41,675 nucleotides of DNA from positions 1-41,675 of the forward strand of contig JADLCR010000044.1 of assembly GCA_020847095.1 (NCBI GenBank). Reading direction: 5' to 3'. The first letter of the stretch is position 1; each line of letters opens with the position of its first letter. A program made the translations under genes and the position numbers. The notes below the pieces were generated by a model. It did not search any database. It had not been told where the DNA came from and saw nothing but the letters and a program-made list of their open reading frames with translations. Positions 4,242 to 24,829 of this stretch are shown one piece after another. Origin of the DNA: Oligoflexia bacterium (lineage in GTDB: Bacteria; Bdellovibrionota; Bdellovibrionia; JABDDW01).

Positions 4242-4781
4242 ATGGGAGCTAAGAAAGAAAAGCTGGCCGAAGAGCGCCATCAATTTGAGGTCCACGGCAC
4301 TGAAAGAGATCTCGGAGTCTTGCAATACTCTGTATTGGAAATGGTTTCGCTTTCTAAGTACGACGATGCAGCGCGAATTTTAGCCGAATACCGAAAGAGC
4401 AAATCCAAATACCCCACCTACGAGATTAAAACCGGAAGACTCTTTGATCACTGTGGTGAACTTATCGAGGCGATTCGCGCCAAAAAAACCTTTCCCAACC
4501 TTCAAAACTTAGCCCAAACAAAGCAAGAAGAAATCCATCAAAAAGCCAAAGAGAACTGGGAAGATCTAAGGGTTTCACTGCGTAGATTGCGGACCATGGA
4601 AAATGAAATGGCCGTTGCCGACTCACGCTCAAGTGTATGGGTCATCCGTGCGTTGATTTTTTCAGCCTTTATGATCTTGGGCACTTTCGTTATCCAAGAG
4701 GCCTTTCGCTCCTTCGGAATGTCCTTTTCGTTTTTTATCGACGAAATTATTCGAGTCTTTTGGGGTCTACTCGGAAGTTAA
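4242..4781 (+). CDS. Small protein with a C-terminal membrane anchor, unknown function
   Basis: The 179-residue product is not recognised. Residues 1-125 are charged and predicted helical (LVEMVSLSKYDDAARILAEYRKSKSKYP-like segments), with no signal peptide. A hydrophobic stretch at about 131-150 (VIRALIFSAFMILGTFVI) and a second amphipathic or hydrophobic one at about 156-175 form a C-terminal membrane region, so the bulk should face the cytoplasm. The ATG at 4242 was taken because it follows a short upstream region without better in-frame starts; the ribosome-binding site is weak. The TAA stop overlaps the TAA of the convergent VKOR-DsbA gene through a shared TTAA (4778-4781). Confidence 0.72.
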   Translation: MGAKKEKLAEERHQFEVHGTERDLGVLQYSVLEMVSLSKYDDAARILAEYRKSKSKYPTYEIKTGRLFDHCGELIEAIRAKKTFPNLQNLAQTKQEEIHQKAKENWEDLRVSLRRLRTMENEMAVADSRSSVWVIRALIFSAFMILGTFVIQEAFRSFGMSFSFFIDEIIRVFWGLLGS

Positions 4782-5950
4782 GGCGACAGTTGATCAAGGA
4801 CTTTTTGCAAAACTGGGATAGTAGCCCCGCCTGGCAAATAGCGCCCATTCACAATTAAAGTCGGAGTGCCCTGGACTTGAGCCGTAATGCCTCTGTCAAC
4901 TTGTTCGCGTATTAAGGCATCCGTATTCGGATCGTTTAAGCATTGGTCAAACAACTCCTTATTGAGCCCAATTTGTGTTGCCATTTCTTGGATGGATTCT
5001 AATTTGAGTCGATCTTGAGAGTTAAAAATCCAGCTTTTGGCTTCTAAAAACTTTCCTTGCCCGTGGGCACATTGGGCCGCTTTTGCTAAGGGGCAGGACA
5101 AGCCGTGTCCGCCGGTCCCTTGCATGGCTTTGTTGCAAGCGGGATCCAGGGGGTAGCTCTGAAAGACTATCGAAACTTTTTCGCGATTGGCATTGTAAAA
5201 GGCCATTAAAGTAGGATCGGCCCGTCGACAATGGCCACATTGAAAATCAAAAAATTCGACGATTTGCATTGGGGCCGTTGGCGAGCCTACTCGAGGCGCG
5301 TTTTCAAGATTAAATTCATTCTTCTTGTTTTGGCTCCATTCGGAAAGGGCAATCTCTTTGAGCTTGTCCATTTGGCTTGAAATATTTTGTGTCAACATCC
5401 CGTTAGCCAAGAACGATCCAATAGGAATCATGGCTAAGAATGCGACCGTCCCGTAAGAAGATCGAAGGCGACTCCAATCCGAAAGAAAACTGACTTTGGG
5501 AAGTCCACTTTTCAACATGATGCCTGAAGCAAAAGTGATGATGGATACGACATAAAGAGCCATGCACATCAGGCCTCCGGATTTAATGATGACTGCAGAA
5601 ACCGCTGCTAACAATAAGCTAGCGGTGAAGGAGATCGCAGATAAGTAAAAGAAAATTCTTTTGCACCACTGGGATTCTTCATTATCGAGGGTTCGTGCGC
5701 CGAATAGAAAAATCAGCTGCACCAAATAAGTCATAAATCCCCAGAGAGCGACGGGAATGCCAAGGAACTCCGAAAAACGACTCGTGTTAACAGCATCACA
5801 ATCAAGGTGTGAGTTTAGCGAGCAAAAGCTTTTCCCTAGACTAAGGCCGTGCATGAGGTCGTAGTGATGCATGACCAGATAAGCAGAGACCCCTAAACCA
5901 CAAATCAATCCTACGACTGCCGCCGCAAACCAAAATGTTTTGTTATTCAT
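4778..5950 (-). CDS. VKOR-DsbA fusion, membrane disulfide-bond-forming protein
   Basis: The protein joins a quinone-linked vitamin K epoxide reductase (VKOR) domain to a DsbA-like thioredoxin domain, so one polypeptide could both oxidise substrates and be re-oxidised. Residues 1-185 hold about five membrane segments. The loop Cys43 and Cys51 lie in FCSLNSHLDCDAV, followed by the conserved EFLGIPVALWGF. The soluble part (about 222-390) has CGHC at 238-241 and a cis-Pro loop QGTPTLIVNGRY, so it should face the periplasm. Extra Cys residues occur at 272, 286 and 294. Oddity: the VKOR active-site CxxC reads GLMC (126-129), so the first Cys is Gly. The start at 5950 puts a hydrophobic segment at the N-terminus. 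The fusion layout is known in several phyla. Confidence 0.9.
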   Translation of the reverse strand: MNNKTFWFAAAVVGLICGLGVSAYLVMHHYDLMHGLSLGKSFCSLNSHLDCDAVNTSRFSEFLGIPVALWGFMTYLVQLIFLFGARTLDNEESQWCKRIFFYLSAISFTASLLLAAVSAVIIKSGGLMCMALYVVSIITFASGIMLKSGLPKVSFLSDWSRLRSSYGTVAFLAMIPIGSFLANGMLTQNISSQMDKLKEIALSEWSQNKKNEFNLENAPRVGSPTAPMQIVEFFDFQCGHCRRADPTLMAFYNANREKVSIVFQSYPLDPACNKAMQGTGGHGLSCPLAKAAQCAHGQGKFLEAKSWIFNSQDRLKLESIQEMATQIGLNKELFDQCLNDPNTDALIREQVDRGITAQVQGTPTLIVNGRYLPGGATIPVLQKVLDQLSP

Positions 5951-6054
5951 GATTGTTCTTTTAACCCATGATCTGGCTTTCGTCTAGGTCTGCCAAAAGT
6001 CCTTCAAATCGGAAGTCGAGAAAACTACAATGATGAAATAGGGGTGTGGGCCAA

Positions 6055-7650
6055 ATGACAGCACGAGAGCAGTTGCTCAAAATGCAGCGCATCATTTTGA
6101 GACAAATCAAGAATGAAGTCTTTCGGCTTGAAGGGCCTTCTCGCAAAGGCCTCGCCTCCTATTACTCTCGGTATCAGCGGGAGCTCAGGGGTTTTGCTCG
6201 CGTGTCTTCTAAGCGTGAATTACTTTCTGAGGTGCGCAAGGCACAAATCGTTTTTGGGGCCGATTTTCATGCGTTTTCCCAAAGTCAAAGAACCCATTTG
6301 AGAATCCTAAGAAGTCTGAGTCAGGTCAATCGACCGGTAATCTTGTGTTTAGAGGCGTTTGGATCGCGATTTCAAAAAGAAATCGAACGCTATCTTCAGG
6401 GTAAAGTTTCAGATGCAGAATTTTTGAAGCGCTCCCAGTATTTTGAAAACTGGGGGTTTCCATGGGAAAACTACCAAGTTCTGTTTGAATACGCGCGAGC
6501 TAACAAAGTTAAAGTCTTCGGGATCAACGATGTCAACGCGCGGAGACCCGAAAAGGAATTGCGCCGTCGGGATCTTCACAGTGCAACCGTCATCTCAAAA
6601 ATCCACCGAGAAAACCCAACCGCTCTCATCTATGTGATTTATGGGGATCTTCATCTGGCGAAAGGGCACTTACCCAAATTGACAAGAAAGTTAATTGGTA
6701 GCCGCACTCAAGCCCGTTTTGTCACCATTTTTCAGAACTCTGAGAATCTGTATTGGCGCTTGGCAAAACGAAAACTTGAAGATCATGTCGATGTGGTCAG
6801 ACTCAGATCCGATGCGTTTTGCGTTGTGAATTCGCCGCCTTGGCTAAAATGGCAGGCCTACCTCAGTTTTCTTGAAGGATCAGCCGTGCAAGAGCGCCGG
6901 GAGCGGGGAGATGCTGGAGCGGAGTTTATTCATGAAATGATTAAAGTCATTTCTCAGGTTTGGGGAGTCACACCCCTTTGTCAGCATGACTACAATATCT
7001 ATAGTTATTTCGATTTTCGGCTGTTTAAGGGTATCTCAGAAGTTTCTAAGCGGAAAAATAAATCAGCTCTTTTGAAGTTAGTCGAAGGGGAGCGCAACTT
7101 CTTTATTCCCCATCCACGCACCTTTTTTCTGCTCAACTACACAGTCAATCATGGCGCCTCTTTGGCCGGTCAGTATCTTCATGCCAAGATGAGACGCGAG
7201 CGGGAACTTCATTATGATTTTCCAGGGGACCTTGTGCCCTTAATTTGGATTGAGGCTATTGGCTTTTTCGCCAGTCGAGTGCTGAACAGCCGACGAAAGC
7301 CCAACTCACATTCGGACTTGCCGGTGAAGAGCCAATCGACTCTGATAGTACTTGAGCAGCAGCTCAAAGAGAGGCTCGCGCTCAAGGGAGATCAAGTGCT
7401 TAAAGCTCTGCGTCCTCAGGCGGGAAGGCGATTTGGCCACTATTACTTAGCAGGCCGTTATATGGGGTCTCAGCTTGGCGCTCAAATTTATAATGCTTTT
7501 CGAGCGGGATCTTTGCGGCCAAGCGAGCTTCATCGTTGGCTAAGAAAACCAGTAGCGAATAAAGCAAGTTTTTACGTATTTTATACAGAGGTCTTAAGAT
7601 TTCTCAAAGGGCTTGAAAACCCGGAACCAAAGTTAGAGGAGAGGTTATAG
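6055..7650 (+). CDS. ChaN/TraB-like (haem-binding uptake family) protein with unknown C-terminal half
   Basis: The first 270 of 531 residues resemble the ChaN (PF04187) fold: VFGADFHAFSQSQRTHLRIL where family members have GExHxxxxHH, then VILCLEAF, a helical segment with LKRSQYFENWGFPWENYQ, and LIYVIYGDLHLAKGHLPKL. ChaN proteins bind haem or act as cofactor-binding lipoproteins, but this one has no signal peptide or lipobox and is probably cytoplasmic, so its ligand is unknown. The C-terminal half (about 290-531) is not recognised; it is helical with conserved-looking blocks (NHGASLAGQYLHAKMRRER, GRRFGHYYLAGRYMGSQLG). ATG 6055 is preferred over the in-frame GTG at 6046 because GGGG at 6041-6044 is correctly spaced for it. 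It is followed after 2 bp by the GYF gene, so the two likely form an operon. Confidence 0.72.
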   Translation: MTAREQLLKMQRIILRQIKNEVFRLEGPSRKGLASYYSRYQRELRGFARVSSKRELLSEVRKAQIVFGADFHAFSQSQRTHLRILRSLSQVNRPVILCLEAFGSRFQKEIERYLQGKVSDAEFLKRSQYFENWGFPWENYQVLFEYARANKVKVFGINDVNARRPEKELRRRDLHSATVISKIHRENPTALIYVIYGDLHLAKGHLPKLTRKLIGSRTQARFVTIFQNSENLYWRLAKRKLEDHVDVVRLRSDAFCVVNSPPWLKWQAYLSFLEGSAVQERRERGDAGAEFIHEMIKVISQVWGVTPLCQHDYNIYSYFDFRLFKGISEVSKRKNKSALLKLVEGERNFFIPHPRTFFLLNYTVNHGASLAGQYLHAKMRRERELHYDFPGDLVPLIWIEAIGFFASRVLNSRRKPNSHSDLPVKSQSTLIVLEQQLKERLALKGDQVLKALRPQAGRRFGHYYLAGRYMGSQLGAQIYNAFRAGSLRPSELHRWLRKPVANKASFYVFYTEVLRFLKGLENPEPKLEERL

Positions 7651-7652
7651 CC

Positions 7653-9398
7653 ATGGAAAGCACGCAATCAACTCAATGGTACGTTGTGATTAACGGCAAG
7701 GCTGAGGGGCCATTTCTTGAGACCGAGATCATCGAGAGAATCAGAAAAGGTGAGTTAAAGGCTACCGACTTGGTTTTTAAGCAAGGACTTACAAAGTGGG
7801 TGAGTATTGGCGAGTGCCCAGAGTTTGAACGAAGAGGGCCGGAGGCGGTTGCTCACACGGCTGGGACCTTTGAAATTCCCAAAGAGTCCGGTGAAGGTTG
7901 GGTTTTGTTAGTTAAGCATGACATGCCCGAGGGGAAGCATCACTACGTGCAAAGTGGGCCCTTTACCCACGACCAAATAAAAGAAAAACTAGAGCGTGCC
8001 GAAATCAAGTTTGAAGATCATGTCTGGCAAAAAGGGATGACTCATTGGACTTTGATTGGCTCCCTTGATGAATTCAATCGCCGAAGGCCGCATATTGAAA
8101 TTCAGCCCAAACCTCAATTAGGTGAAGCGGGGCCAACCGTGAACACGGCCCCTATGAGTGAACCAATCCCCGAAGTAACACCGAAGCCCATACCCAAAGC
8201 TTTGGAGGCCGAGCCCACGGTGACGTCTTTTGAAATCAAGCCCGAGGCTTCAACTCCACAAGCAAGCCCCCAATCCCCAGTGGCCGAGCCTGAACCGGTT
8301 TTAAGCTTAGCGCACGCTTCTGGGTCGGATGCTCAACCAGAATCACCCCAAGGTTCAAAAATGTCGCAATTAACAAAGAAACAAAGGTTGATTATTGCAA
8401 GCTCGGGAGCCTTACTCGGCATGCTTGTGGTTTATGCCGGATTGCAGACTTATCGAGAGTCTATTCCTAAAGCTCCACCTTTGCCCTCGGCGGAGCGCCA
8501 GACGGCTAGTCAAGAGGTGCCCCAACCACCGCCGCTTCCGCCTGAGCCAGCTGCCGAACCCCCTGTGGTAAAGAGTACCGAAGTTAATCAAGCCCAAGAA
8601 GAGATGGATCGTCAGGCACTAGGTTCGAAAACTCAACAACTGCAACCTGTGGGTAAAGAAGAAATCGAGGTTACCCCTCCCAATAGGATCCAAAAACTTA
8701 GCATCATGCCCCTTAAAGTGAATTCAAAGCGGCCACAGCTTGTATTTGAAACGGACCTTCCAAAAGGATCCAAAATTCAAATTCAGCTCAAGGGCGAGCC
8801 TGGTGAAATATTAAGTAACAAAGCGGTGATTAAGGATTATGAAGTTTTCGTCGAGGAGGGTAAGGTTCCGACGGTTGATCTTAGTCAAGCCAAGCTAAAA
8901 CCGGGAACTTACTCCGTTGTGGCTGAGTCCAGCGGAATGAAAGCTAAGGCGACTTTAAGTCTTCTGACTGGAGATAAAATGACCAAGAAGAAGATCGCCG
9001 AATTCAAAAAGAAAATCGCAAAGGCCGAAGCCGCGGAGAAATCCGCAGTCAGCCATCGCGTCAAGGCTCTGAAGGCTAGTTACGGGCAACTTAAAGATTT
9101 TCAGCTGAAAACAAAGGTCAAAAAGGCTAACAAGGAAACTTGGAAGCGATTTTACAAAAAGTGGAAGTCAGACCTGGACGATCAAGGAAAGAAAAACAAA
9201 AAACTAATGAAAGACTCTAAGACTCAGGCACAGACATTTAAAAGCATCGAAGGATTAAGGTTAAAGCTTTCCAAAATCGGTTCTAAAATGAACAAGACAT
9301 TCACGGGACAACGAGACGTGGCCTCTGAAGTCGATCTTGATCAGTGGGGTCAAGAGTTTGGAGAGTTTCGCAAGGGGTTGGGAAGTCCGAAAAAATAA
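7653..9398 (+). CDS. Membrane protein with two GYF_2 domains, Pro-rich linkers and a Lys-rich tail
   Basis: Two tandem GYF_2 domains sit at about residues 9-58 and 82-140. Each has a W/G-P-F start, a helix ending near an LKA/IKF-D motif, and a KQGLTKWVSIG or QKGMTHWTLIG end. A Pro/Glu-rich linker follows (about 145-235), then one membrane segment at about 246-264. After it come a second Pro-rich stretch with PPPLPPEP (about 291-300), a beta-rich part (about 345-435) and a basic helical C-terminus (about 445-575). GYF domains generally bind proline-rich sequences, so the N-terminal half is expected in the cytoplasm and the beta and Lys-rich parts outside. The substrate is unknown. The gene starts 2 bp after the ChaN-like gene, with GGAG 12-15 bp upstream. 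Its stop lies in the A-tract of the HU terminator. Confidence 0.8.
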   Translation: MESTQSTQWYVVINGKAEGPFLETEIIERIRKGELKATDLVFKQGLTKWVSIGECPEFERRGPEAVAHTAGTFEIPKESGEGWVLLVKHDMPEGKHHYVQSGPFTHDQIKEKLERAEIKFEDHVWQKGMTHWTLIGSLDEFNRRRPHIEIQPKPQLGEAGPTVNTAPMSEPIPEVTPKPIPKALEAEPTVTSFEIKPEASTPQASPQSPVAEPEPVLSLAHASGSDAQPESPQGSKMSQLTKKQRLIIASSGALLGMLVVYAGLQTYRESIPKAPPLPSAERQTASQEVPQPPPLPPEPAAEPPVVKSTEVNQAQEEMDRQALGSKTQQLQPVGKEEIEVTPPNRIQKLSIMPLKVNSKRPQLVFETDLPKGSKIQIQLKGEPGEILSNKAVIKDYEVFVEEGKVPTVDLSQAKLKPGTYSVVAESSGMKAKATLSLLTGDKMTKKKIAEFKKKIAKAEAAEKSAVSHRVKALKASYGQLKDFQLKTKVKKANKETWKRFYKKWKSDLDDQGKKNKKLMKDSKTQAQTFKSIEGLRLKLSKIGSKMNKTFTGQRDVASEVDLDQWGQEFGEFRKGLGSPKK

Positions 9399-9418
9399 AA
9401 GGCCGGTCATCCCGGCCT
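9391..9418 (-). terminator. Rho-independent terminator of the HU gene
   Basis: Read on the minus strand, AGGCCGG pairs with CCGGCCT (stem 9400-9406 with 9412-9418, loop of 5) and is followed by TTTTATTTTT. The U-tract is on the minus-strand side only, so it terminates HU. Its A-tract lies over the stop codon of the plus-strand GYF gene. Confidence 0.85.
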
Positions 9419-9446
9419 CATAATCAGTGATAAACGAGCGCGAAGC

Positions 9447-9719
9447 TTAGTTAACCATGTCTTTGAATTCTTTTCCTGCGCGAAACCGGGGTACTCGGCT
9501 TGCGGGGATCTCAATAGCAGCGCCAGTTTGAGGATTTCGGCCCGTACGAGCTTTTCTTTTTCCTCGGCTGAAGGTTCCAAAGCCCACAAGTTTAACATCG
9601 TCGCCTTTAGCCACCGCTTTTTTGATGAGTTCAATGGTGCAAGCCAAGATGTTTTCTGACTGTGCCTTCGAGAGCTTTGTTTCAGCGGCCAGTTTATCGA
9701 CGAGCTGAGCTTTGTTCAT
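9447..9719 (-). CDS. HU-family nucleoid DNA-binding protein
   Basis: HU proteins are small dimeric histone-like proteins that bend and compact DNA. The 90-residue product starts MNKAQLVDKLAAETKLSKAQ and contains the family signature GFGTFSRGKRKARTGRNPQTG and a C-terminal PRFRAGKEFKDMVN. Length is typical. The ATG at 9719 is chosen over a longer in-frame start at 9794 because GGAGG lies 5-9 bp before it and the extension is not HU-like. The gene is divergent from argS, with 140 bp between the start codons, and is closed by a strong terminator. Whether it is HU-alpha-like, HU-beta-like or IHF-like cannot be told from this sequence alone; the absence of IHF-specific features favours HU. Confidence 0.95.
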   Translation of the reverse strand: MNKAQLVDKLAAETKLSKAQSENILACTIELIKKAVAKGDDVKLVGFGTFSRGKRKARTGRNPQTGAAIEIPASRVPRFRAGKEFKDMVN

Positions 9720-14842: not shown

Positions 14843-16084
14843 ATGAATCAAATAAAGCGCAGTATTATTATGACCTTAATCTCGGTTGTCGCCTCGGTAG
14901 GCCGAGCTGAGATGGAGAGTACGACGGTCCTTCCACAAGGGGTCTGGAGTCCGGAGATCAACATTGGAATGGTCTCTGGTCTTGAAGATCGTTTTAATTC
15001 AAACGGATTAGTTGAAAGCGCGACAGCTAAGTACCACATTGATTTATCGGGTTCTCGCATTGGAAGACTTTATCCCGAAGTTAAAACTCTAGTGAGTGCA
15101 CTTAATACGGTTTCGCCCGGCCTCGGCGATGCTTTGACACGCGGCGGATTAGATTTCGAAGCGTCACCATTTATTCAATATTTTGGCCCGTCGCTTAGTT
15201 ATGGTCTTTCAAAGAATATCTCAATTGGTTTTGGCGTGCCTGTGTTTGCCGTTCAAAATGACGTTCGCATCGCGGTCAAGGGACCATCTAATCTCAACTC
15301 TGCCGCCGGTTTGGTGAATCAAATTGACCCAGAACTTGATGAGGCCTTTCGAAAAGTAACTGAAATGGCAGCGGCTGTTGATGAAGCCGTTCAACAACTC
15401 CTTGTGTCTCGTGGGTACCAGCGGGTGCGAAATCTCAAATACTCCGCGCTTGGCGATGTTCAAGTGTCGGGGGTTTTCGCTTACTACCACCGACCCCAAT
15501 GGAGATTGGCGATTCGCCCATTTGTGATCTTGCCAACGGGACGCGCTGATGACCCCGACGACTTAGTGGATATAGCCACTGGAGGGCAAACTGCTGTCGG
15601 GGTTTACTCAATTCACGATTACATTCCTCACCGCAAATGGACGATTTCCACAAGCATTGGCTATCAAGTTCCTTTGCCCGATCGTTCGGATGTGAGAGTT
15701 CCCATCGATAATCAGGATGTTTTGCCCGCTGCAAACCGAAAAGAAACGGTCGAGAGACAACTGGGTAATACCATTTTCTTAGAGGCTGGCGTTAAACACG
15801 AAATTAACAAGGAATTTGCACTGACCGGATACTACGGATTTACGCAGAAAGACCCCGATCGGTTTTCAGGCGAACACGATTGGAACTATTCCTTGTTATC
15901 AAGGGATACAGGCTCAGAAGCGCATTCCGTTAAAGGGTCAGTGGAGTTCAGCACAATCAATTGGTTTAGAGAAAAGATTTATGATTTTCCGTTTATCGTT
16001 GGTTACAGTTTTTCAACAAACTTAATGGCCAAAAATACTCCTGTGGCAACAATCAATCAGCTTTATATGAGGTTGTTTTTCTAA
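14843..16084 (+). CDS. Outer-membrane beta-barrel protein, unknown function
   Basis: The 413-residue product has a signal peptide (IMTLISVVASVGRA, likely cut after residue 22). It ends in a terminal aromatic residue (...QLYMRLFF) as do many outer-membrane barrels. Aromatic and Gly-rich alternating segments read as beta strands: FIQYFGPSLSYGLSKNISIGFGVPVF, HRPQWRLAIRPFVILPTG, WTISTSIGYQVPLPD, and FALTGYYGFTQKDPDRFSG. A region of about 50 residues near 150-190 (LDEAFRKVTEMAAAVDEAVQQLL) is helical and probably a plug or extracellular insertion. I do not recognise the family; a substrate-specific transporter is possible. It is followed 2 bp later by the 986-residue lipoprotein gene, so the two likely work together. 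Confidence 0.75.
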   Translation: MNQIKRSIIMTLISVVASVGRAEMESTTVLPQGVWSPEINIGMVSGLEDRFNSNGLVESATAKYHIDLSGSRIGRLYPEVKTLVSALNTVSPGLGDALTRGGLDFEASPFIQYFGPSLSYGLSKNISIGFGVPVFAVQNDVRIAVKGPSNLNSAAGLVNQIDPELDEAFRKVTEMAAAVDEAVQQLLVSRGYQRVRNLKYSALGDVQVSGVFAYYHRPQWRLAIRPFVILPTGRADDPDDLVDIATGGQTAVGVYSIHDYIPHRKWTISTSIGYQVPLPDRSDVRVPIDNQDVLPAANRKETVERQLGNTIFLEAGVKHEINKEFALTGYYGFTQKDPDRFSGEHDWNYSLLSRDTGSEAHSVKGSVEFSTINWFREKIYDFPFIVGYSFSTNLMAKNTPVATINQLYMRLFF

Positions 16085-16086
16085 CT

Positions 16087-19047
16087 ATGGTTCATTCGCT
16101 TTTTATGAAACGAATATTGATTGTAGCCCTTTTAGCATCGGGAGCGGCGGGCTGCGCGAAAAGGGCCGACGTTGGCCCCGACGGGAGTCCGAGAATTTTT
16201 AATCCAAAGGGAGTTGACGCCACTCTTGATCTTTCAAGACGATTTGAGCCTTTGCGCCCTGGACGCTTGCGGCCCACCACCTCGGTTCAATCGGAAAGTT
16301 GGTTGGGGCTATCTAATCAACTTTATGAGTGGGCCTACCTCACTCAGAATCCAGAAGTCATGGTATGGGCAAAGAGCTTGAGTGAATCGTTCTACGCGCT
16401 CCCCCATGCTACTTCAAAAATGATTAAGACGGCCACACCGTACGCGGCGCTCGCCTTTCACGCATTAAAGGAGCGCACCGCAGATAAAAAAGTTGCGGAC
16501 TTAATTAAAGATGCTGTTTCAAAAGCAGCCGAAGAAACAAACATAAATCATGCAGCCCTAACTCCATCGAAAAATCCCGCAACAGTCGTAAGAGCGGTCC
16601 TTGATGCGGTTTATGATTTTATGGCAAAACTGGAGTCCAAAAAGGGACCTGAAACCGCAGAGCATATCGCCGGCATTATTGACCTCATTAAAGAAAAACA
16701 TATTCCTGGCCTGAAAGAAATGGAGAGGGTAGTTGTGCGAGAGCCTGGGCTCCCGGTGGTTCCATTTATGGAGCGACTTAAAGACACACTTAAAAAAATT
16801 CCGGCTCTTACTGAAGGCGAAAGAAACGCGTTAACGAACGAACTAAGATTTGGGATTTACCTCTCAATGGAATCCAGTGCGCTCGATGACGCAGAAAAAA
16901 GTCTTGGTCTCATTATTGATATTTGGCTCAATGGCTATCGACGAAATTTGTTTCCGGCTGACCTTAAAGAGGCTTTAGGGCAGTTTTCAGATCAAGAGCT
17001 ATTGGCTCTTGCGACTCAAAATCAAGTACTGCCTGAGGACGAATGGAAGGTCGTTAGAAACACTAAGGTATTAAAGTCACTGACCCAAAGGCAAATTGTG
17101 GCAAGGGGAGTTGAAAACCAAGTCATCATGGATTCTGATGAGTGGTTGAAGGTCCTGGTGAAATCTGATCGCCATTTGAAGAAACTCTTAGAGCGCAAGG
17201 ATGTCATGCAACTTGCTTCGGACATGGTTCCTGAAGAAGTGCTCAGCTCGCAACAGGTTTTGACAGTGCTCGCATCAATGTGGTTGGGCCAAGAACTTCG
17301 GCTTGTATTTCCGGAGACACTTAGGAAGAGCTTCGCGGATCTATCTAGGCAAGATTTAGAAATGCTTAAGACCAATGACTTTTGGACGATCAGGCATCCT
17401 TGGTTGAGATTGATTCGGCGGCAGGCGATCGCAGATCTAAAAATGTTTACGGCAGAAGGACTTCCGGCCCCAGAAAATCCTCAGCAAGCGCTTGAAAATC
17501 TCAAAGCATATTTGGAGCAGGCGATTGTTGGATCGGCACAGGAAAGAGTGACATTTGCTTTTATTCCGATTGCTAAGAATTTGCCGAAGGTTATTAAAAG
17601 TAATATTGACCCGTTGTTAGCAACCCAGGCGCGGGGTCTGACTGTAGACAAGTTTAAAAGTACCGCCGATGAAGTATTGGAAGAATGGTTTTTTGCTCAC
17701 GTTAAAGGTGAAAAGTCGCTGCCATTACTTGAAAAATCAGAAGTTCGTTTTGAAAGTGCAGGCAACGACCTGAGGAATATCGCAACTCCAAACACCACGC
17801 AGCCAGCTGTATTGGGCAAAGGCTTCACGAATATATCATTCAGACTCCATCAAGGAGGAGTGTCGAGTGTAGAGCGCGCATTGGGCTATCAAAATGTATG
17901 CAAGATGTCGGTGATGATGGGCTATAAAGATCTTGGCGATCGAAACATCGAGCCCCTCATTGTTAATCTTGAAAGACGCGGACAAAAGTTAGTACTTGGT
18001 GAGTACAATCCTGCCAATGGACTTTTTGCTATACCTGATCGCTTAATATTTAGAGACTCGGCGGAGCTTGATGAGCAAACCTATAGTCAACTTCAAGTTT
18101 CAGCGGAGCAACAAATGGAGCTGCTCCGAGGTCTGGTCTCAGTTATTAGGTTTGTTTCGCCTTGGCGACAAAGTCCCTTCGATCAACAATTGGGAACCTT
18201 ACGGATTAAACAGATTCCATTCGAAGTCTTTTCAAAGCCGACCTTATTTAAAATGGCCGTCGGACTATCTGAAGTCATATTTCAAAATATGAAGAGCCAT
18301 ATGGTACGCGTCGTTGACGAAAACTTAGGACTCTGGATGGTCGATGAAAAAACTGATCCCAATGGGCCGAAGCGTGTTGGTGCTGTTGTGACGGATTTGG
18401 TTTCTTTGGTTAAGAATAATTCGGTATCGAGCGGAGATTTAGCTCGGGCGTTACTTGCTATGACAGAATTCTATGAAGCAACCCTTGGGATCGAGTCGGT
18501 CACGGACCCAAAACTTCAATCTATAGTAAAAAGTGTGGTCGAAAGCCGCCCGGAAATAAAGAAACTCATCATGGGATTGGCACTATTTCTCTCTAACCAG
18601 ATGGTTTTAGTTGATGGTGGGGTTGCCTCAGAATTTGATTTTAACTCAAAGCTTCCAAGTCGAATTCCTCGAAAGTTGAGTGATCAATTAATCACAGCGA
18701 CGGCACTTTTGAAGCTTGGGAACCTGTTTCAAACAGATTTGTTTAGGCTCCGAGCCGTAGATGTTTACTATTTCATGAATCGTCAGCTTTGGTCCGGCGT
18801 GCTCGGGTTTTATAAGCAAGTCGAAGGCGACGATACCCTCCGGGTTAAGTTAGAAGATGTGGCTACGGCGCTTTCGCTGGTGAATAGGCTTCAGGGATTT
18901 ATTCAGAGCTTTTTGACTCAGAGTCCCATGGCAAGCGAGTCGTTAAGTCAATTGAGACGGCTTGAGAGCCTGTGGACGGAGCGATTTATGGATCGTCAAT
19001 GGGCCACACTTCCACCAATCCAGCAGGTGATGGAGTTTTCTCTTTAA
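16087..19047 (+). CDS. Large lipoprotein (986 aa), unknown function
   Basis: The product begins with a lipoprotein signal peptide (MKRILIVALLASGAAGC, lipobox AAGC with Cys23 counted from ATG 16087). The in-frame ATG at 16105 would also give a clean signal, and the start is uncertain. The remaining 960 residues are mostly helical and charged (repeated Lys/Glu and Leu), with a beta-richer stretch around residues 560-650 (RFESAGNDLRNIATPN, GKGFTNISFRLHQGG). I see no known domain. Only one other Cys is present (KMSVMMG context), so no disulfide network. It probably sits at the inner face of the outer membrane or on the surface. It lies 2 bp after the barrel gene and 72 bp before the thiol-oxidase lipoprotein gene. 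Confidence 0.78.
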   Translation: MVHSLFMKRILIVALLASGAAGCAKRADVGPDGSPRIFNPKGVDATLDLSRRFEPLRPGRLRPTTSVQSESWLGLSNQLYEWAYLTQNPEVMVWAKSLSESFYALPHATSKMIKTATPYAALAFHALKERTADKKVADLIKDAVSKAAEETNINHAALTPSKNPATVVRAVLDAVYDFMAKLESKKGPETAEHIAGIIDLIKEKHIPGLKEMERVVVREPGLPVVPFMERLKDTLKKIPALTEGERNALTNELRFGIYLSMESSALDDAEKSLGLIIDIWLNGYRRNLFPADLKEALGQFSDQELLALATQNQVLPEDEWKVVRNTKVLKSLTQRQIVARGVENQVIMDSDEWLKVLVKSDRHLKKLLERKDVMQLASDMVPEEVLSSQQVLTVLASMWLGQELRLVFPETLRKSFADLSRQDLEMLKTNDFWTIRHPWLRLIRRQAIADLKMFTAEGLPAPENPQQALENLKAYLEQAIVGSAQERVTFAFIPIAKNLPKVIKSNIDPLLATQARGLTVDKFKSTADEVLEEWFFAHVKGEKSLPLLEKSEVRFESAGNDLRNIATPNTTQPAVLGKGFTNISFRLHQGGVSSVERALGYQNVCKMSVMMGYKDLGDRNIEPLIVNLERRGQKLVLGEYNPANGLFAIPDRLIFRDSAELDEQTYSQLQVSAEQQMELLRGLVSVIRFVSPWRQSPFDQQLGTLRIKQIPFEVFSKPTLFKMAVGLSEVIFQNMKSHMVRVVDENLGLWMVDEKTDPNGPKRVGAVVTDLVSLVKNNSVSSGDLARALLAMTEFYEATLGIESVTDPKLQSIVKSVVESRPEIKKLIMGLALFLSNQMVLVDGGVASEFDFNSKLPSRIPRKLSDQLITATALLKLGNLFQTDLFRLRAVDVYYFMNRQLWSGVLGFYKQVEGDDTLRVKLEDVATALSLVNRLQGFIQSFLTQSPMASESLSQLRRLESLWTERFMDRQWATLPPIQQVMEFSL

Positions 19048-19119
19048 TTTGGCTAAGTCCGTGGTTATCCTTCTGAAATCGACAATTGATTTTGACGCCA
19101 TTTGAAAACGGAGGAAACT

Positions 19120-20133
19120 GTGAAAAAGTTTTTAGTGCTCGGAATGATTTTGTCTGCGGCTTTAGTCGGATGCCAGAAAAATGCTGGAGACAACGAAGAT
19201 GAGGCGGTATTTGTAACCGTCAATGGCAAAGACATCAAGGGAAAGCAAGTACTTGAGAAGATTCGGGGCGAGCTCACTGAACTTGAGCGAAATGCCTATG
19301 AATTAAAAAGACGGGCCATTGAAGAAGTTGTGCAAAACCACATCCTAGAAGAAGAGGCTAAAAAGCAAGGTACGACTGTTCAAAACCTCTTTTCACAGTT
19401 TGATGGATTGAAGGATAAGGACGTTTCTAAAGAGGATATTAAGGGGTTTCTCGGTTCGCGCAATATCGACGAAAAGAAATTAAGCAAAGCCGAAAGGGAC
19501 TCCGTTCCGCAAATTATAAAAATGCAGCGTGTGATGGAAGCTCGGCAAAGATACTTGGCTGAACTTAAGAGCAAAGCAAGCATTCAAGTAAAGCTCAAGC
19601 GTCCAGCTGAAAAGGCTGTGACTGTTGGAAACGGTCAGGGTACAGCAAAGGGCAACAAGGGAGCAAAAGTCACAATCGTTGAGTTTAGCGACTTTCAATG
19701 CCCATTTTGTCGCCGTGGTCGTGATCGTCTGAATGAGATCGTTAGTAAATATGGTGACAAGGTCCAAATTTATTTCCGACACTTTCCGTTAGAGTCCATT
19801 CACCCTCACGCCTTTAAAGCTTCGGAAGCTTCGATTTGTGCGCGAGAACAAGGCAAATTCTGGGAATACCATGATTTGCTGTTTGATCAGCAAGACAAGC
19901 TTGAAGAAAAAGACCTCTTGGCTCACGCCGAAACTCTTAAGCTCGACACCAAGGCTTTCGGAGAGTGCCTCAAATCTGGTAAGGGAGCTGCTGAAATTCG
20001 CGCTGATATGGAAGAGGCAACTAAAATCGGTGTGAACAGCACGCCAACATTTTTTGTTAACGGCTTTGCCGTTCGCGGTGCGCAGCCTTTAGAAGCGTTT
20101 TCTGAGCGCATTGATGAGCTTCTAAGCAAGTAA
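19120..20133 (+). CDS. Lipoprotein with SurA-N-like region and DsbA-like thioredoxin domain
   Basis: A lipoprotein signal (KKFLVLGMILSAALVGC, Cys18) is followed by a SurA-N/PPIase-chaperone-like helical region (about 30-150: VFVTVNGKDIKGKQVLEKIRGELTELER, then AIEEVVQNHILEEEAKKQGT). A DsbA-like domain (about 180-335) follows. It has CPFC at 194-197 in FSDFQCPFCRRG, the cis-Pro motif NSTPTFFVNG, and an extra Cys pair around ICARE and ECLK. It should introduce or shuffle disulfides in periplasmic clients and may chaperone them. GTG at 19120 is chosen over the TTG at 19102 because GGAGG at 19110-19114 is well spaced for it and the resulting signal peptide starts correctly. It is the last gene before a strong terminator. 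Confidence 0.86.
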   Translation: MKKFLVLGMILSAALVGCQKNAGDNEDEAVFVTVNGKDIKGKQVLEKIRGELTELERNAYELKRRAIEEVVQNHILEEEAKKQGTTVQNLFSQFDGLKDKDVSKEDIKGFLGSRNIDEKKLSKAERDSVPQIIKMQRVMEARQRYLAELKSKASIQVKLKRPAEKAVTVGNGQGTAKGNKGAKVTIVEFSDFQCPFCRRGRDRLNEIVSKYGDKVQIYFRHFPLESIHPHAFKASEASICAREQGKFWEYHDLLFDQQDKLEEKDLLAHAETLKLDTKAFGECLKSGKGAAEIRADMEEATKIGVNSTPTFFVNGFAVRGAQPLEAFSERIDELLSK

Positions 20134-20156: not shown

Positions 20157-20186
20157 AAGACCCGACTCCGGTCGGGTCTTTTTTTT
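20157..20186 (+). terminator. Rho-independent terminator after the DsbA-like lipoprotein
   Basis: AAGACCCGAC (20157-20166), loop TCCG, GTCGGGTCTT (20171-20180) forms a perfect 10-bp stem and is followed by a run of T to 20186. It is on the plus strand 24 bp after the stop codon and ends the 14.8-20.1 kb unit. Confidence 0.95.
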
Positions 20187-20259
20187 ATCTTCGAACAGTC
20201 CGTGGAACTCGCTTAGGTCCGTGATATTCTATTGGTAAGTGTTTTCAGGAGGAAGACGC

Positions 20260-21915
20260 ATGGCCGTAGAGCGGGTAGATCGAAGCGCACGCAAGGATGC
20301 TCATGTTCGCGAAAGTCAGGAAGACGGCGAACGGGCAATGATCGCAAGACATCGTCGCGAGGTTGCTGAGATGCATCGCAAGCATCAAGAGGACCTCAAA
20401 AAAATAAAAGAAGACTATGACAAGAGACTTGATGAAACTCATTCGAATTCGCGGGCTACCATTTCAGAAAAAGACAAAAAGCACATCGACCAAGTTAACG
20501 AGCTCAAAGATACCCAGCGCCGGCTCATTGCCAAACAACGCCTCGAGGATGAAGAAGAATCCCGAAGACTTCGTAATAATTATGAAGGTGAAATTAAAAG
20601 GCTCAAAGACAAAGGAAATAAAGACACTGAACGCCTTTCTAATACTTTTACTGAACAGCTGACCGAAAAAGACAAGCAAACACGGGAATTGGAGCAAAAA
20701 TCGCGAGAAGGCAGTCAAGATGCGCTTCGGGCGAAAACCGAAAAACTCCAAGAAAAGCATGAGCAAGAAATGGGTGGCCTTGTGGAGCGAGTCGCCTCAC
20801 TTCAAGAAGAAAAGTTCTCAGAGGCTGAACGGGCTCGTAGGGCGCAAGATCGTGAGATCAAGCAAATGGAATCCCATCACAAGGCTCGTGAGAAGGCCAA
20901 TGAACAAAAGTGGAAAGATATACTGGCATTTGAAAAGGCAAAGTTTGACGACACTTTATCTGACATGAAATATGGCTACGACGATGCAAGGTTAGACCTT
21001 AAAGAGCAGCGCATGGAGCAAAGGGCTAATCTGGAAGATGAATACGCCGATCAGGTCAATCGATTGACTGACCAAGTTAATGACCGAGTCGATAAAGAAG
21101 TGAATTCGGTAAGACGTGAGAATGCAGATTTGAAACGCACAGCCGTTTCCGACCAAGTGACTCATAATCGCCAAAAAAATCGGGAGATCAAAAATCTACA
21201 GGATGAATATCAAAGAAAACTTGATGAACTGGAAAGAAGAAGAGTTGAAGGTGGAGCGCTCTCACACCAAGAATATTCCAAGCGCGTCGATCAGATTCAA
21301 AACGAACACAATCAATTCTTACAAGATCTAGACGCAAAATATAGAAACAAGCTTGAAGAAGAAAAGAACCGCTATGAGTCTCACCTGGATCAAAGCGTGG
21401 GACAGGCTAACCGTGATAAAGCGCTAGGTAAACTCATGGCCGACCAACAAAAGAAAAAGCTGACCGAGCTTTATGCGGAAAAAACGGTCGGACAAGCCGA
21501 ATTTTACGAAGATCAATTAAAGGCGAAGCATAAAGAGAAGAACCAATCTTTGGCCGATCAGAGACTCAATTTGGACAAGCGACGGGTTAACGAGGTCGAT
21601 GCGCTTCGAGAGCAAATGATGAAGCAAAGTGTTTCTCATCAGGAAAAGCTAGTAGAAACCATCGGAACCTACGAGCGTCAAATTAACTTGATGCGTAATG
21701 ATTATGATAAAAAATTTCGCCAACAAAATGAAATTCACAGAGATCAAACGAACAAGCTCATCAACGCCTCAAAGCTTGAACGTGAAACCCTCGAGTCTCA
21801 AATGCAACAGCGAATCAATTCGATGAAAAATGCCTATGAAAAGGAAATTGATCAGTTAAGAAAACGACAAGCCGCCGAGAGACAAGAGCTTGCAACTAAG
21901 AAGTCTCAAGGGTAA
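20260..21915 (+). CDS. Long coiled-coil protein (551 aa), unknown function
   Basis: The product is almost wholly charged helix (very rich in Glu, Lys, Gln, Arg, Asp; almost no Pro, Cys or Trp) from residue 15 to the end, with repeating heptad-like segments such as EKLQEKHEQEMGGLVERV and RQNEIHRDQTNKLIN. There is no signal peptide and no membrane segment. Such proteins usually form rods or filaments; a cytoskeletal or polar scaffold role is inferred only from this. ATG at 20260 is chosen over the in-frame GTG at 20239 because AGGAGG (20246-20251) is correctly placed for it. It is followed after 9 bp by pyk with no terminator between, so the two may be co-transcribed. Upstream is a terminator, so the promoter must lie in 20187-20259. 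Confidence 0.85.
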   Translation: MAVERVDRSARKDAHVRESQEDGERAMIARHRREVAEMHRKHQEDLKKIKEDYDKRLDETHSNSRATISEKDKKHIDQVNELKDTQRRLIAKQRLEDEEESRRLRNNYEGEIKRLKDKGNKDTERLSNTFTEQLTEKDKQTRELEQKSREGSQDALRAKTEKLQEKHEQEMGGLVERVASLQEEKFSEAERARRAQDREIKQMESHHKAREKANEQKWKDILAFEKAKFDDTLSDMKYGYDDARLDLKEQRMEQRANLEDEYADQVNRLTDQVNDRVDKEVNSVRRENADLKRTAVSDQVTHNRQKNREIKNLQDEYQRKLDELERRRVEGGALSHQEYSKRVDQIQNEHNQFLQDLDAKYRNKLEEEKNRYESHLDQSVGQANRDKALGKLMADQQKKKLTELYAEKTVGQAEFYEDQLKAKHKEKNQSLADQRLNLDKRRVNEVDALREQMMKQSVSHQEKLVETIGTYERQINLMRNDYDKKFRQQNEIHRDQTNKLINASKLERETLESQMQQRINSMKNAYEKEIDQLRKRQAAERQELATKKSQG

Positions 21916-23407: not shown

Positions 23408-24715
23408 TTATTTTTTTTCTTCCGTTCTTCTAACTTCATCAAATGCCTCATTAATATCGTCAATTCTCTTGTCCAATTTTTTGAAAATATCGGCCGTCAT
23501 GAGGTGAGCGCTTGATAATGAACTGGCTTCACGGCTATCAGCCGGAAGATGCTCGGATAAAAACCGGTTGAGAAGACTCTCGAGCTGAACGCGAATTCCG
23601 ATTGGAAAGTTAAAGTAAGTTCCAAATCCGTGGGCGGATTCAATAATGATCGGGGCAAGCACCTGATGAGTTTTTAATTTCAATGCACCGTCGTAAAGAC
23701 CTGCCATGTAAGCGACCCGCATGACCGCGGCTTCGGTAGGATACACATTTGGCCTAGCCAAAAAGCTTACCGCCTCTGCAAGTGCCGCCAAGTCTTCTGT
23801 GACCGCAAATTTATAAGAAGCGCTAAAGGGCGTATCCAGATCACCCTCTTTTAGTTTTGAAAGATAAGAAGAAAAATTAGCAGTGCCCGCATCAATTTCA
23901 AATGATCTTTCCTTAAGGAGCTGGTCGGTTAAGAGGCGAGTGACTTGTTCGCCGAGTACGGATTGATGTTTGTCTAGAAAAGCCGCTAACTGGAGAGTTC
24001 TTAGATTTACATATTGTGCCCTTACGAGCAGTGATCGAGGTAGTAGAATCGATCCAAGGTGGTAGGCTACTTCATGAACGGTCAAGTTTGGATTGTTGTC
24101 ATCGTACGGAAACCTGAGGGCAATGTCTCCCTCTGAACGAGACCCTAATTCGATGATCTGCCGAGCGCTTAAGAATCCTTGCTGAACGGGAAGGTATGAA
24201 ATTGGCTCTTTACCTCTTTTCTTAAGGACTTCGTTAACCTCTAAGACTTTGCGTTTTAATTTCTCGGCCGATGGAGCAATCAAACGAACGGCCCGATTCG
24301 GCAGTTCGAAAATTGAAAACCCAAGATTCTGGTAGAGGCGAAACCCCAAAGTAAATAGGGGCCGTCGAGGATCTGCCTGTTTTGTGAACGTTCCCGGCAT
24401 GTACTCATGAGCCGAATACCACGCCGATCGCGGGCTCTTTTTTTCTAAGATCACGTTACCGGAGGCGTCTTGGCCCAAAAAAATAACAGTTGGTTTCATT
24501 GAAGCTTTGGTATCGGGAACAAGCAATTCGGTTTCAACACGAAGCGGCCGTTGACCCGCCGGATTCAAATGAAATATCGCTTTGATGCAAGAAAGTAGCG
24601 ACTCAGCAAGGCTTGGACGGTGAGTTTCGGCAAATGCCGATGGGCCCCAAAGGGAAAGTCCCACTATCAAAGCGAGCACTAATGCATGAGTGTTGAGTCT
24701 CTTGAGTAAGATCAT
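23408..24715 (-). CDS. Secreted protein of unknown function (435 aa)
   Basis: A signal peptide (LNTHALVLALIVGLSLWGPSAFA, cut before ETH) targets the product to the periplasm or beyond. I recognise no family. A HEVAYH segment (His-Glu-x-x-x-His) occurs near residue 215 and is followed by a hydrophobic LGSILLPRSLLVRAQYV helix. HExxxH is one of several zinc-binding patterns, so a metallohydrolase role is possible but weak. The C-terminal third is helical and charged. The ATG at 24715 is chosen over a TTG at 24733 in the same frame. The 114 bp between this start and the CNBD stop codon hold no gene; I see only a few A/T-rich hexamers there. The gene ends 4 bp from the convergent pyk stop. Confidence 0.72.
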   Translation of the reverse strand: MILLKRLNTHALVLALIVGLSLWGPSAFAETHRPSLAESLLSCIKAIFHLNPAGQRPLRVETELLVPDTKASMKPTVIFLGQDASGNVILEKKSPRSAWYSAHEYMPGTFTKQADPRRPLFTLGFRLYQNLGFSIFELPNRAVRLIAPSAEKLKRKVLEVNEVLKKRGKEPISYLPVQQGFLSARQIIELGSRSEGDIALRFPYDDNNPNLTVHEVAYHLGSILLPRSLLVRAQYVNLRTLQLAAFLDKHQSVLGEQVTRLLTDQLLKERSFEIDAGTANFSSYLSKLKEGDLDTPFSASYKFAVTEDLAALAEAVSFLARPNVYPTEAAVMRVAYMAGLYDGALKLKTHQVLAPIIIESAHGFGTYFNFPIGIRVQLESLLNRFLSEHLPADSREASSLSSAHLMTADIFKKLDKRIDDINEAFDEVRRTEEKK

Positions 24716-24829
24716 CAGATCGAATAATTGCAAAGCTTATGGCAAAAACCGCTCTCTAAAATCGAATATAGGGGCGCTTATATGAAGATTGTGGCAGGGG
24801 ACAGTTTTTGGCACTCGGTTGTTCAGGTC

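Follow-up and report, generated by a model that had tools for sequence, protein, structure and literature searches.

A gene for a candidate outer-membrane beta-barrel protein and the gene that follows it, for a giant lipoprotein, form an invariant two-gene cassette that has been gained and lost together across the Bdellovibrionota. The pair, here called BARREL and BIGLIP, lies in a contig from an Oligoflexia bacterium [GenBank: JADLCR010000044.1], the whole of which, 41,675 nucleotides, was analysed and is referred to as the window. The most probable reading, to which we give a probability of about 55%, is that BARREL and BIGLIP work together as the two subunits, both of them obligate, of an outer-membrane complex, in which the toroid-type end of BIGLIP binds or guides a ligand and a third gene is optional. 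The first-pass annotation of the window had placed all three genes in one unit with a single strong terminator; the three co-directional open reading frames are indeed all present and correctly placed, and the terminator is present in the sequence after gene 3. The features of the region are:

14843..16084, forward strand: BARREL, outer-membrane beta-barrel candidate of 413 residues, with a signal peptide, a Phe-Phe end and no Cys
16105..19047, forward strand: BIGLIP, giant outer-membrane lipoprotein of 980 residues, the lipid Cys being residue 17
17065..17424, forward strand: insert in BIGLIP, residues 321-440, seen from column conservation
18577..18963, forward strand: BIGLIP residues ~825-953, alpha-hairpins like those of the alpha/alpha-toroid of DUF255/YyaL and AGE epimerases
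19120..20133, forward strand: gene 3, optional neighbour, a lipoprotein with a SurA-N-like part and a DsbA-like thioredoxin part (CPFC)
20157..20188, forward strand: intrinsic terminator, a 10-pair stem (20157-20180) followed by a T run
20239..21915, forward strand: COIL, coiled-coil-like protein of 558 residues outside the unit, with no Pfam match

For BIGLIP the ATG at 16105 is a more likely start than the ATG at 16087, which would give 986 residues; for gene 3 the GTG at 19120 (337 residues) is more likely than the TTG at 19102 (343 residues). The intergenic gaps are 2 bp between genes 1 and 2 and 72 bp between genes 2 and 3, the latter counted from 19120. A terminator scan of the window gave 9 sites, which is no excess over the 7.8 of shuffled sequences, but the site at 20157-20188 is the best of them. 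COIL is conserved after the pair in families f1, f4, f5, f8 and f11, followed by pyruvate kinase wherever the contig is long enough. Elsewhere in the window, on the reverse strand, are a VKOR-thioredoxin/DsbA fusion of 390 residues, a self-contained disulfide-forming enzyme (4778-5950), and a 441-residue open reading frame with no Pfam match above chance (23408-24733). A DsbA-like gene of similar length to the VKOR fusion is found near the pair at three loci of family f5 (L125, L127 and L129).

Do the three genes occur apart in other genomes? The synteny search that had been proposed as a test of the unit gave a divided answer, as gene 3 is separable and genes 1 and 2 stay together. The genome of the window has one copy of BIGLIP, and 45 of 148 relatives have the gene. 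When 369 genomes of the phylum were searched with a profile made from 40 BIGLIP sequences (alignment A1), 52 had it at the orthologue level, or 59 if weak matches are included. The barrel profile, made from 39 sequences (alignment A2), matches 224 of the 369 genomes in two groups that are separated by a wide gap in E-value, the orthologue group being below 1e-110 and the best match of the second group being 9e-69. An orthologous barrel (E <1e-110, or interrupted by the end of a contig) is beside BIGLIP in 50 of the 52 BIGLIP genomes. The two others are G115, where BIGLIP is incomplete and its contig short, and G142, a 57% complete genome in which the locus is at a contig edge. Conversely, no orthologue-level barrel without BIGLIP was found in the 369 phylum genomes. 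At nearly all loci the orthologous barrel is directly upstream of BIGLIP on the same strand, with gaps that are mostly between -4 and 18 bp. There are exceptions: a 320-residue open reading frame lies between the two at L139, and the second BIGLIP of G061 has no adjacent barrel gene (L170, G061:C5, 6359-8938). At L129 (G016, 5301-9671) BIGLIP is apparently split into open reading frames of 253 and 781 residues, possibly through a frameshift or sequencing error. In a Halobacteriovorax genome (G400, from L041) the barrel match has the contig position and E-value that it has in G260 of the 369 genomes, which identifies their phylum as the Bdellovibrionota. A search that took in 29 genomes of other groups (Myxococcota, Acidobacteriota and others) found nothing in these, its six matches all being to Bdellovibrionota-type genomes. 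No barrel relatives were found in viral contigs.

The movement of the pair as a unit can be seen within a single genus, g10, in which 14 genomes have both BARREL and BIGLIP and 10 have neither. The genes that flank the pair in L116 stand 229 bp apart in the empty site L325 (G038), and those that flank it in L115 stand 29 bp apart in L319 (G040). L320 and L316 are further empty sites in pair-negative genomes. These pair-negative sites are without exactly BARREL and BIGLIP, and nothing else. In addition, the pair is found in many unrelated gene contexts. Together, the pairing counts, the presence and absence in g10, the two-gene empty sites and the varied contexts make a strong case that the two genes are one functional unit. 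A mirror-tree comparison of BARREL and BIGLIP gave r 0.93, a value that is uncorrected for the species tree and carries little weight. The suggestion that the barrel and the giant lipoprotein belong together, originally made from one sequence, is far better founded, through the 50 of 52 genomes, the empty sites and the co-diversification, than its author could have known.

The description of gene 1 as an outer-membrane barrel candidate stands. BARREL has an N-terminal signal peptide, ends in LYMRLFF with a C-terminal Phe and matches Phenol_MetA_deg (PF13557) at 1.1e-8, with 35.9 bits against a Pfam cut-off of 22. Just 7 of 39 family members have this match (E up to 0.05), and BARREL differs from Phenol_MetA_deg barrels in its two conserved helical inserts, seen by eye in alignment A2, and in its lipoprotein partner. 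No TonB-dependent receptor or plug was matched by Pfam in BARREL or its 39 relatives, which distinguishes it from the TonB-dependent SusC/SusD-type pair. An AlphaFold prediction from the single BARREL sequence, with no alignment, had a pLDDT of 29.2, too low for the model to be of use. PopA of Bdellovibrio is a pentameric 16-stranded porin-like protein (PMC12228718); the text of that paper mentions neither phenol nor Pfam.

BARREL belongs to a larger family of three clades, and in each clade the barrel gene directly precedes a gene for one particular class of lipoprotein. Besides BIGLIP, the partner classes are MED (~560-650 residues) and SMALL (~280-500 residues). When lipoproteins are called with a strict lipobox pattern, the gene after the orthologous barrel is one at 36 of 42 loci, compared with 21 of 470 other genes; at the remaining 6 loci the lipobox is missed by the pattern or the start is over-long. 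After second-group barrels the count is 22 of 31 by the strict pattern and 27 of 31 by eye, compared with 15 of 334 other genes. In a tree of 72 barrel sequences the SMALL-associated barrels form one clade (100% SH-aLRT) and the MED-associated barrels another (99%), with those of BIGLIP making up the rest, and the partner-class label changes 4 times on the tree versus 27.7 in shuffles. Profile comparison shows MED and BIGLIP lipoproteins to be related (83-88%) and finds no similarity between SMALL lipoproteins and BIGLIP. Several genomes have two pair types together. We tentatively suggest that these pairs could be phylum-wide, undescribed two-component outer-membrane machines, in which one barrel family has three clades with dedicated lipoprotein classes and one class may have recruited a non-catalytic, polymer-binding alpha/alpha-toroid. 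The SMALL-type loci (L156, L157, L227-L229, L235-L244) often have a gene for a secreted, weakly TPR-like protein of 265-318 residues upstream, and so have a three-gene arrangement of their own.

Could the lipoprotein be the cargo of the barrel rather than its partner? The genes of Slam/DUF560 surface-lipoprotein translocators, which are outer-membrane barrels, commonly adjoin a lipoprotein gene (PMC5449769, PMC8406197), as the BARREL gene does. In the main rival explanation the barrel would similarly flip the neighbouring lipoprotein to the cell surface, with BIGLIP, or the lipoproteins of the other classes, being cargo that works outside. The barrels are better conserved than the lipoproteins (mean column identity 44% in A2 and 22% in A1), one barrel family serves several lipoprotein classes including the dissimilar SMALL, and the TPR-like gene upstream of SMALL-type pairs is reminiscent of the TPR part of Slam, all of which would fit an exporter. 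However, neither Slam/DUF560 nor TPR models are matched by the window BARREL (E up to 1) or by any of the 39 barrels (0/39, E up to 0.05), BIGLIP-type pairs do not have the TPR-like gene immediately before them, and each barrel clade has kept a single lipoprotein class with no exchange of cargo. We therefore consider a Slam-like exporter unlikely.

BIGLIP has the lipobox ASGAAGC-AK, and the lipid Cys is kept in at least 90% of its 40 relatives. The insert of ~120 residues (321-440) is near-absent outside the family of the window, with a conservation of 0.05-0.14 of all rows. The earlier view that this lipoprotein, then taken as 986 residues, is without known domains holds true for Pfam and NCBIfam, as nothing beyond chance-level helical matches was found for the family in these or in PDB sequences. 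It does not hold for profile-profile comparison. With hhalign, the C-terminal region of BIGLIP aligns with DUF255/YyaL at 95% over ~116 columns and with AGE epimerases at 62-71%, whereas none of 48 decoy families, made from genes of the neighbourhood, exceeded 0.8%. In the reverse direction, the best 14 of 546 neighbourhood open reading frames in a search with the YyaL profile are all BIGLIPs. Likewise, the non-orthologous matches to the BIGLIP profile in the 369 genomes are, in every case that was scanned with Pfam, DUF255/YyaL or AGE epimerase; L161, L164 and L257 are DUF255-like by sequence, and L256 is outside the Pfam scan. The match spans ~115-130 BIGLIP residues, which corresponds to two or three hairpins and is short of a whole toroid. 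The BIGLIP profile matched no toroids among PDB sequences with an E-value limit as high as 10, and AlphaFold on the single sequence of the C-terminus, with no alignment, gave an unusable model with a pLDDT of 38.7. On the profile evidence we take the C-terminal region of BIGLIP to be homologous to toroid hairpins, a claim that stops short of a complete toroid.

Unlike DUF255/YyaL proteins, which combine a thioredoxin domain with an alpha/alpha-toroid, BIGLIP is lipid-anchored, and its long N-terminal half is unrelated to theirs. The DUF255 thioredoxin domain PF03190 was matched neither in BIGLIP nor among the families found for its 40-member alignment. The YyaL signature HFEKMLYD has also been lost, with the aligned BIGLIP residues reading ~RKLxDQ, so YyaL-type catalysis is unsupported. 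This bears on the suggestion that BIGLIP processes glycans in the periplasm or at the cell surface, as an active alpha/alpha-toroid hydrolase, lyase or epimerase for which the barrel would be the pore for substrate import or export. The toroid relationship itself would be in keeping with such an enzyme, as would four nearly invariant acids (E543, D645, D686 and D693) in a family with only ~20% identity. Yet these acids are N-terminal to the toroid-like hairpins and no glycan genes are consistently near the pair loci, which, with the altered signature, makes an active enzyme improbable.

Gene 3 is a SurA-N/DsbA-like lipoprotein, as it was first described, with the lipobox LVGC-QK. Its matches to Thioredoxin_4 (2.9e-32) and DSBA (3.3e-24) are strong, and with the CPFC motif and STPTFFV in its sequence it has the thioredoxin fold, CXXC and cis-Pro of a DsbA-like protein. 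The SurA_N_3 match is weak (6.4e-6, 26.5 bits, just below the cut-off of 27.2), and Pfam found no PPIase domain, which a SurA chaperone has in addition to its N-domain. In Thioredoxin_4/DSBA and CPFC it is like the bacterial DsbA/BdbD-type oxidases with a SurA_N domain, compared with which it is ordinary and lineage-specific only in its position beside the pair. It takes that position in only 3 of ~50 loci, which are those of all three genomes of the window's family, and is absent from beside the pair in ~45 other loci. In family f5, 2 of 3 genomes have a SurA-N-only lipoprotein of 161-180 residues where gene 3 would stand. G303 has a complete gene 3 that adjoins pyruvate kinase, is read in the opposite direction to the pair and is outside the transcript of the pair. 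Among scanned contigs 533 relatives of gene 3 were confirmed, including in Myxococcota and Acidobacteriota, and neither barrel nor BIGLIP was found within up to 10 kb on each side of them. DsbA-like proteins are present in every relative genome searched.

The proposal had been that gene 3 completes a self-contained module by folding the other two products. BARREL has no Cys, and BIGLIP has only the lipidated C17 and C599, so that no internal disulfide is possible in either protein and their oxidative folding by gene 3 is contradicted. A CX5C pair (~310-316) is conserved in the BIGLIPs of several families (e.g. f2 and f10; L115, L116, L123 and L130) and absent from those of the window's family. 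The BIGLIPs with this conserved pair are in lineages without gene 3 as a neighbour. A three-gene folding module is thus very improbable, for although gene 3 is adjacent to and apparently co-transcribed with the pair in the window's family and has a shorter counterpart in f5, its rarity beside the pair, the Cys content, the lack of a PPIase domain and the G303 copy all speak against it. The best reading is that gene 3 is an optional downstream neighbour of one lineage, and that the pair is made and functions without any need for it; the SurA-N part may still act as a chaperone, though only in families f1 and f5.

A barrel with a lipoprotein is a known kind of arrangement. In LptD-LptE and AlgE-AlgK, an outer-membrane barrel and a lipoprotein are needed together, and BARREL and BIGLIP resemble them in being a barrel with a dedicated lipoprotein, a likeness that is seen here from the genes alone. 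They differ in that BARREL and BIGLIP have no sequence relation to these proteins by Pfam and PDB sequence search, in the ~980-residue BIGLIP with its toroid-type end, and in that genes for LPS or alginate are not consistently adjacent. In the part of the literature covered, on Bdellovibrio barrel-lipoprotein operons and Phenol_MetA_deg, no description of the barrel family, the pair or the partner classes was found, nor was any named system with this content, in agreement with the first-pass annotation.

Adjacency alone is no proof of physical contact between BARREL and BIGLIP. In the two-subunit complex that we favour, BARREL, with its signal peptide and C-terminal Phe, would be inserted by BAM, and BIGLIP, which has a lipobox, would be sorted to the outer membrane via its lipid anchor. 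The helical N-terminal half of BIGLIP may lie in contact with the barrel, on a side of the membrane that is likewise presumed, and the toroid-type C-terminus might bind or guide the material that passes through the barrel, which would most likely be a chain-like or glycan ligand.

The case of gene 3 illustrates how a third gene that is read in the direction of its neighbours, however appealing its annotation, can be no more than a bystander. If BARREL and BIGLIP do form a complex, it would be a barrel-plus-lipoprotein system of the Bdellovibrionota with a lipoprotein that is unrecognised in Pfam and NCBIfam. The two-gene presence and absence within one genus provides natural knock-outs for the envelope role of the pair, both in predatory bacteria and in their relatives.
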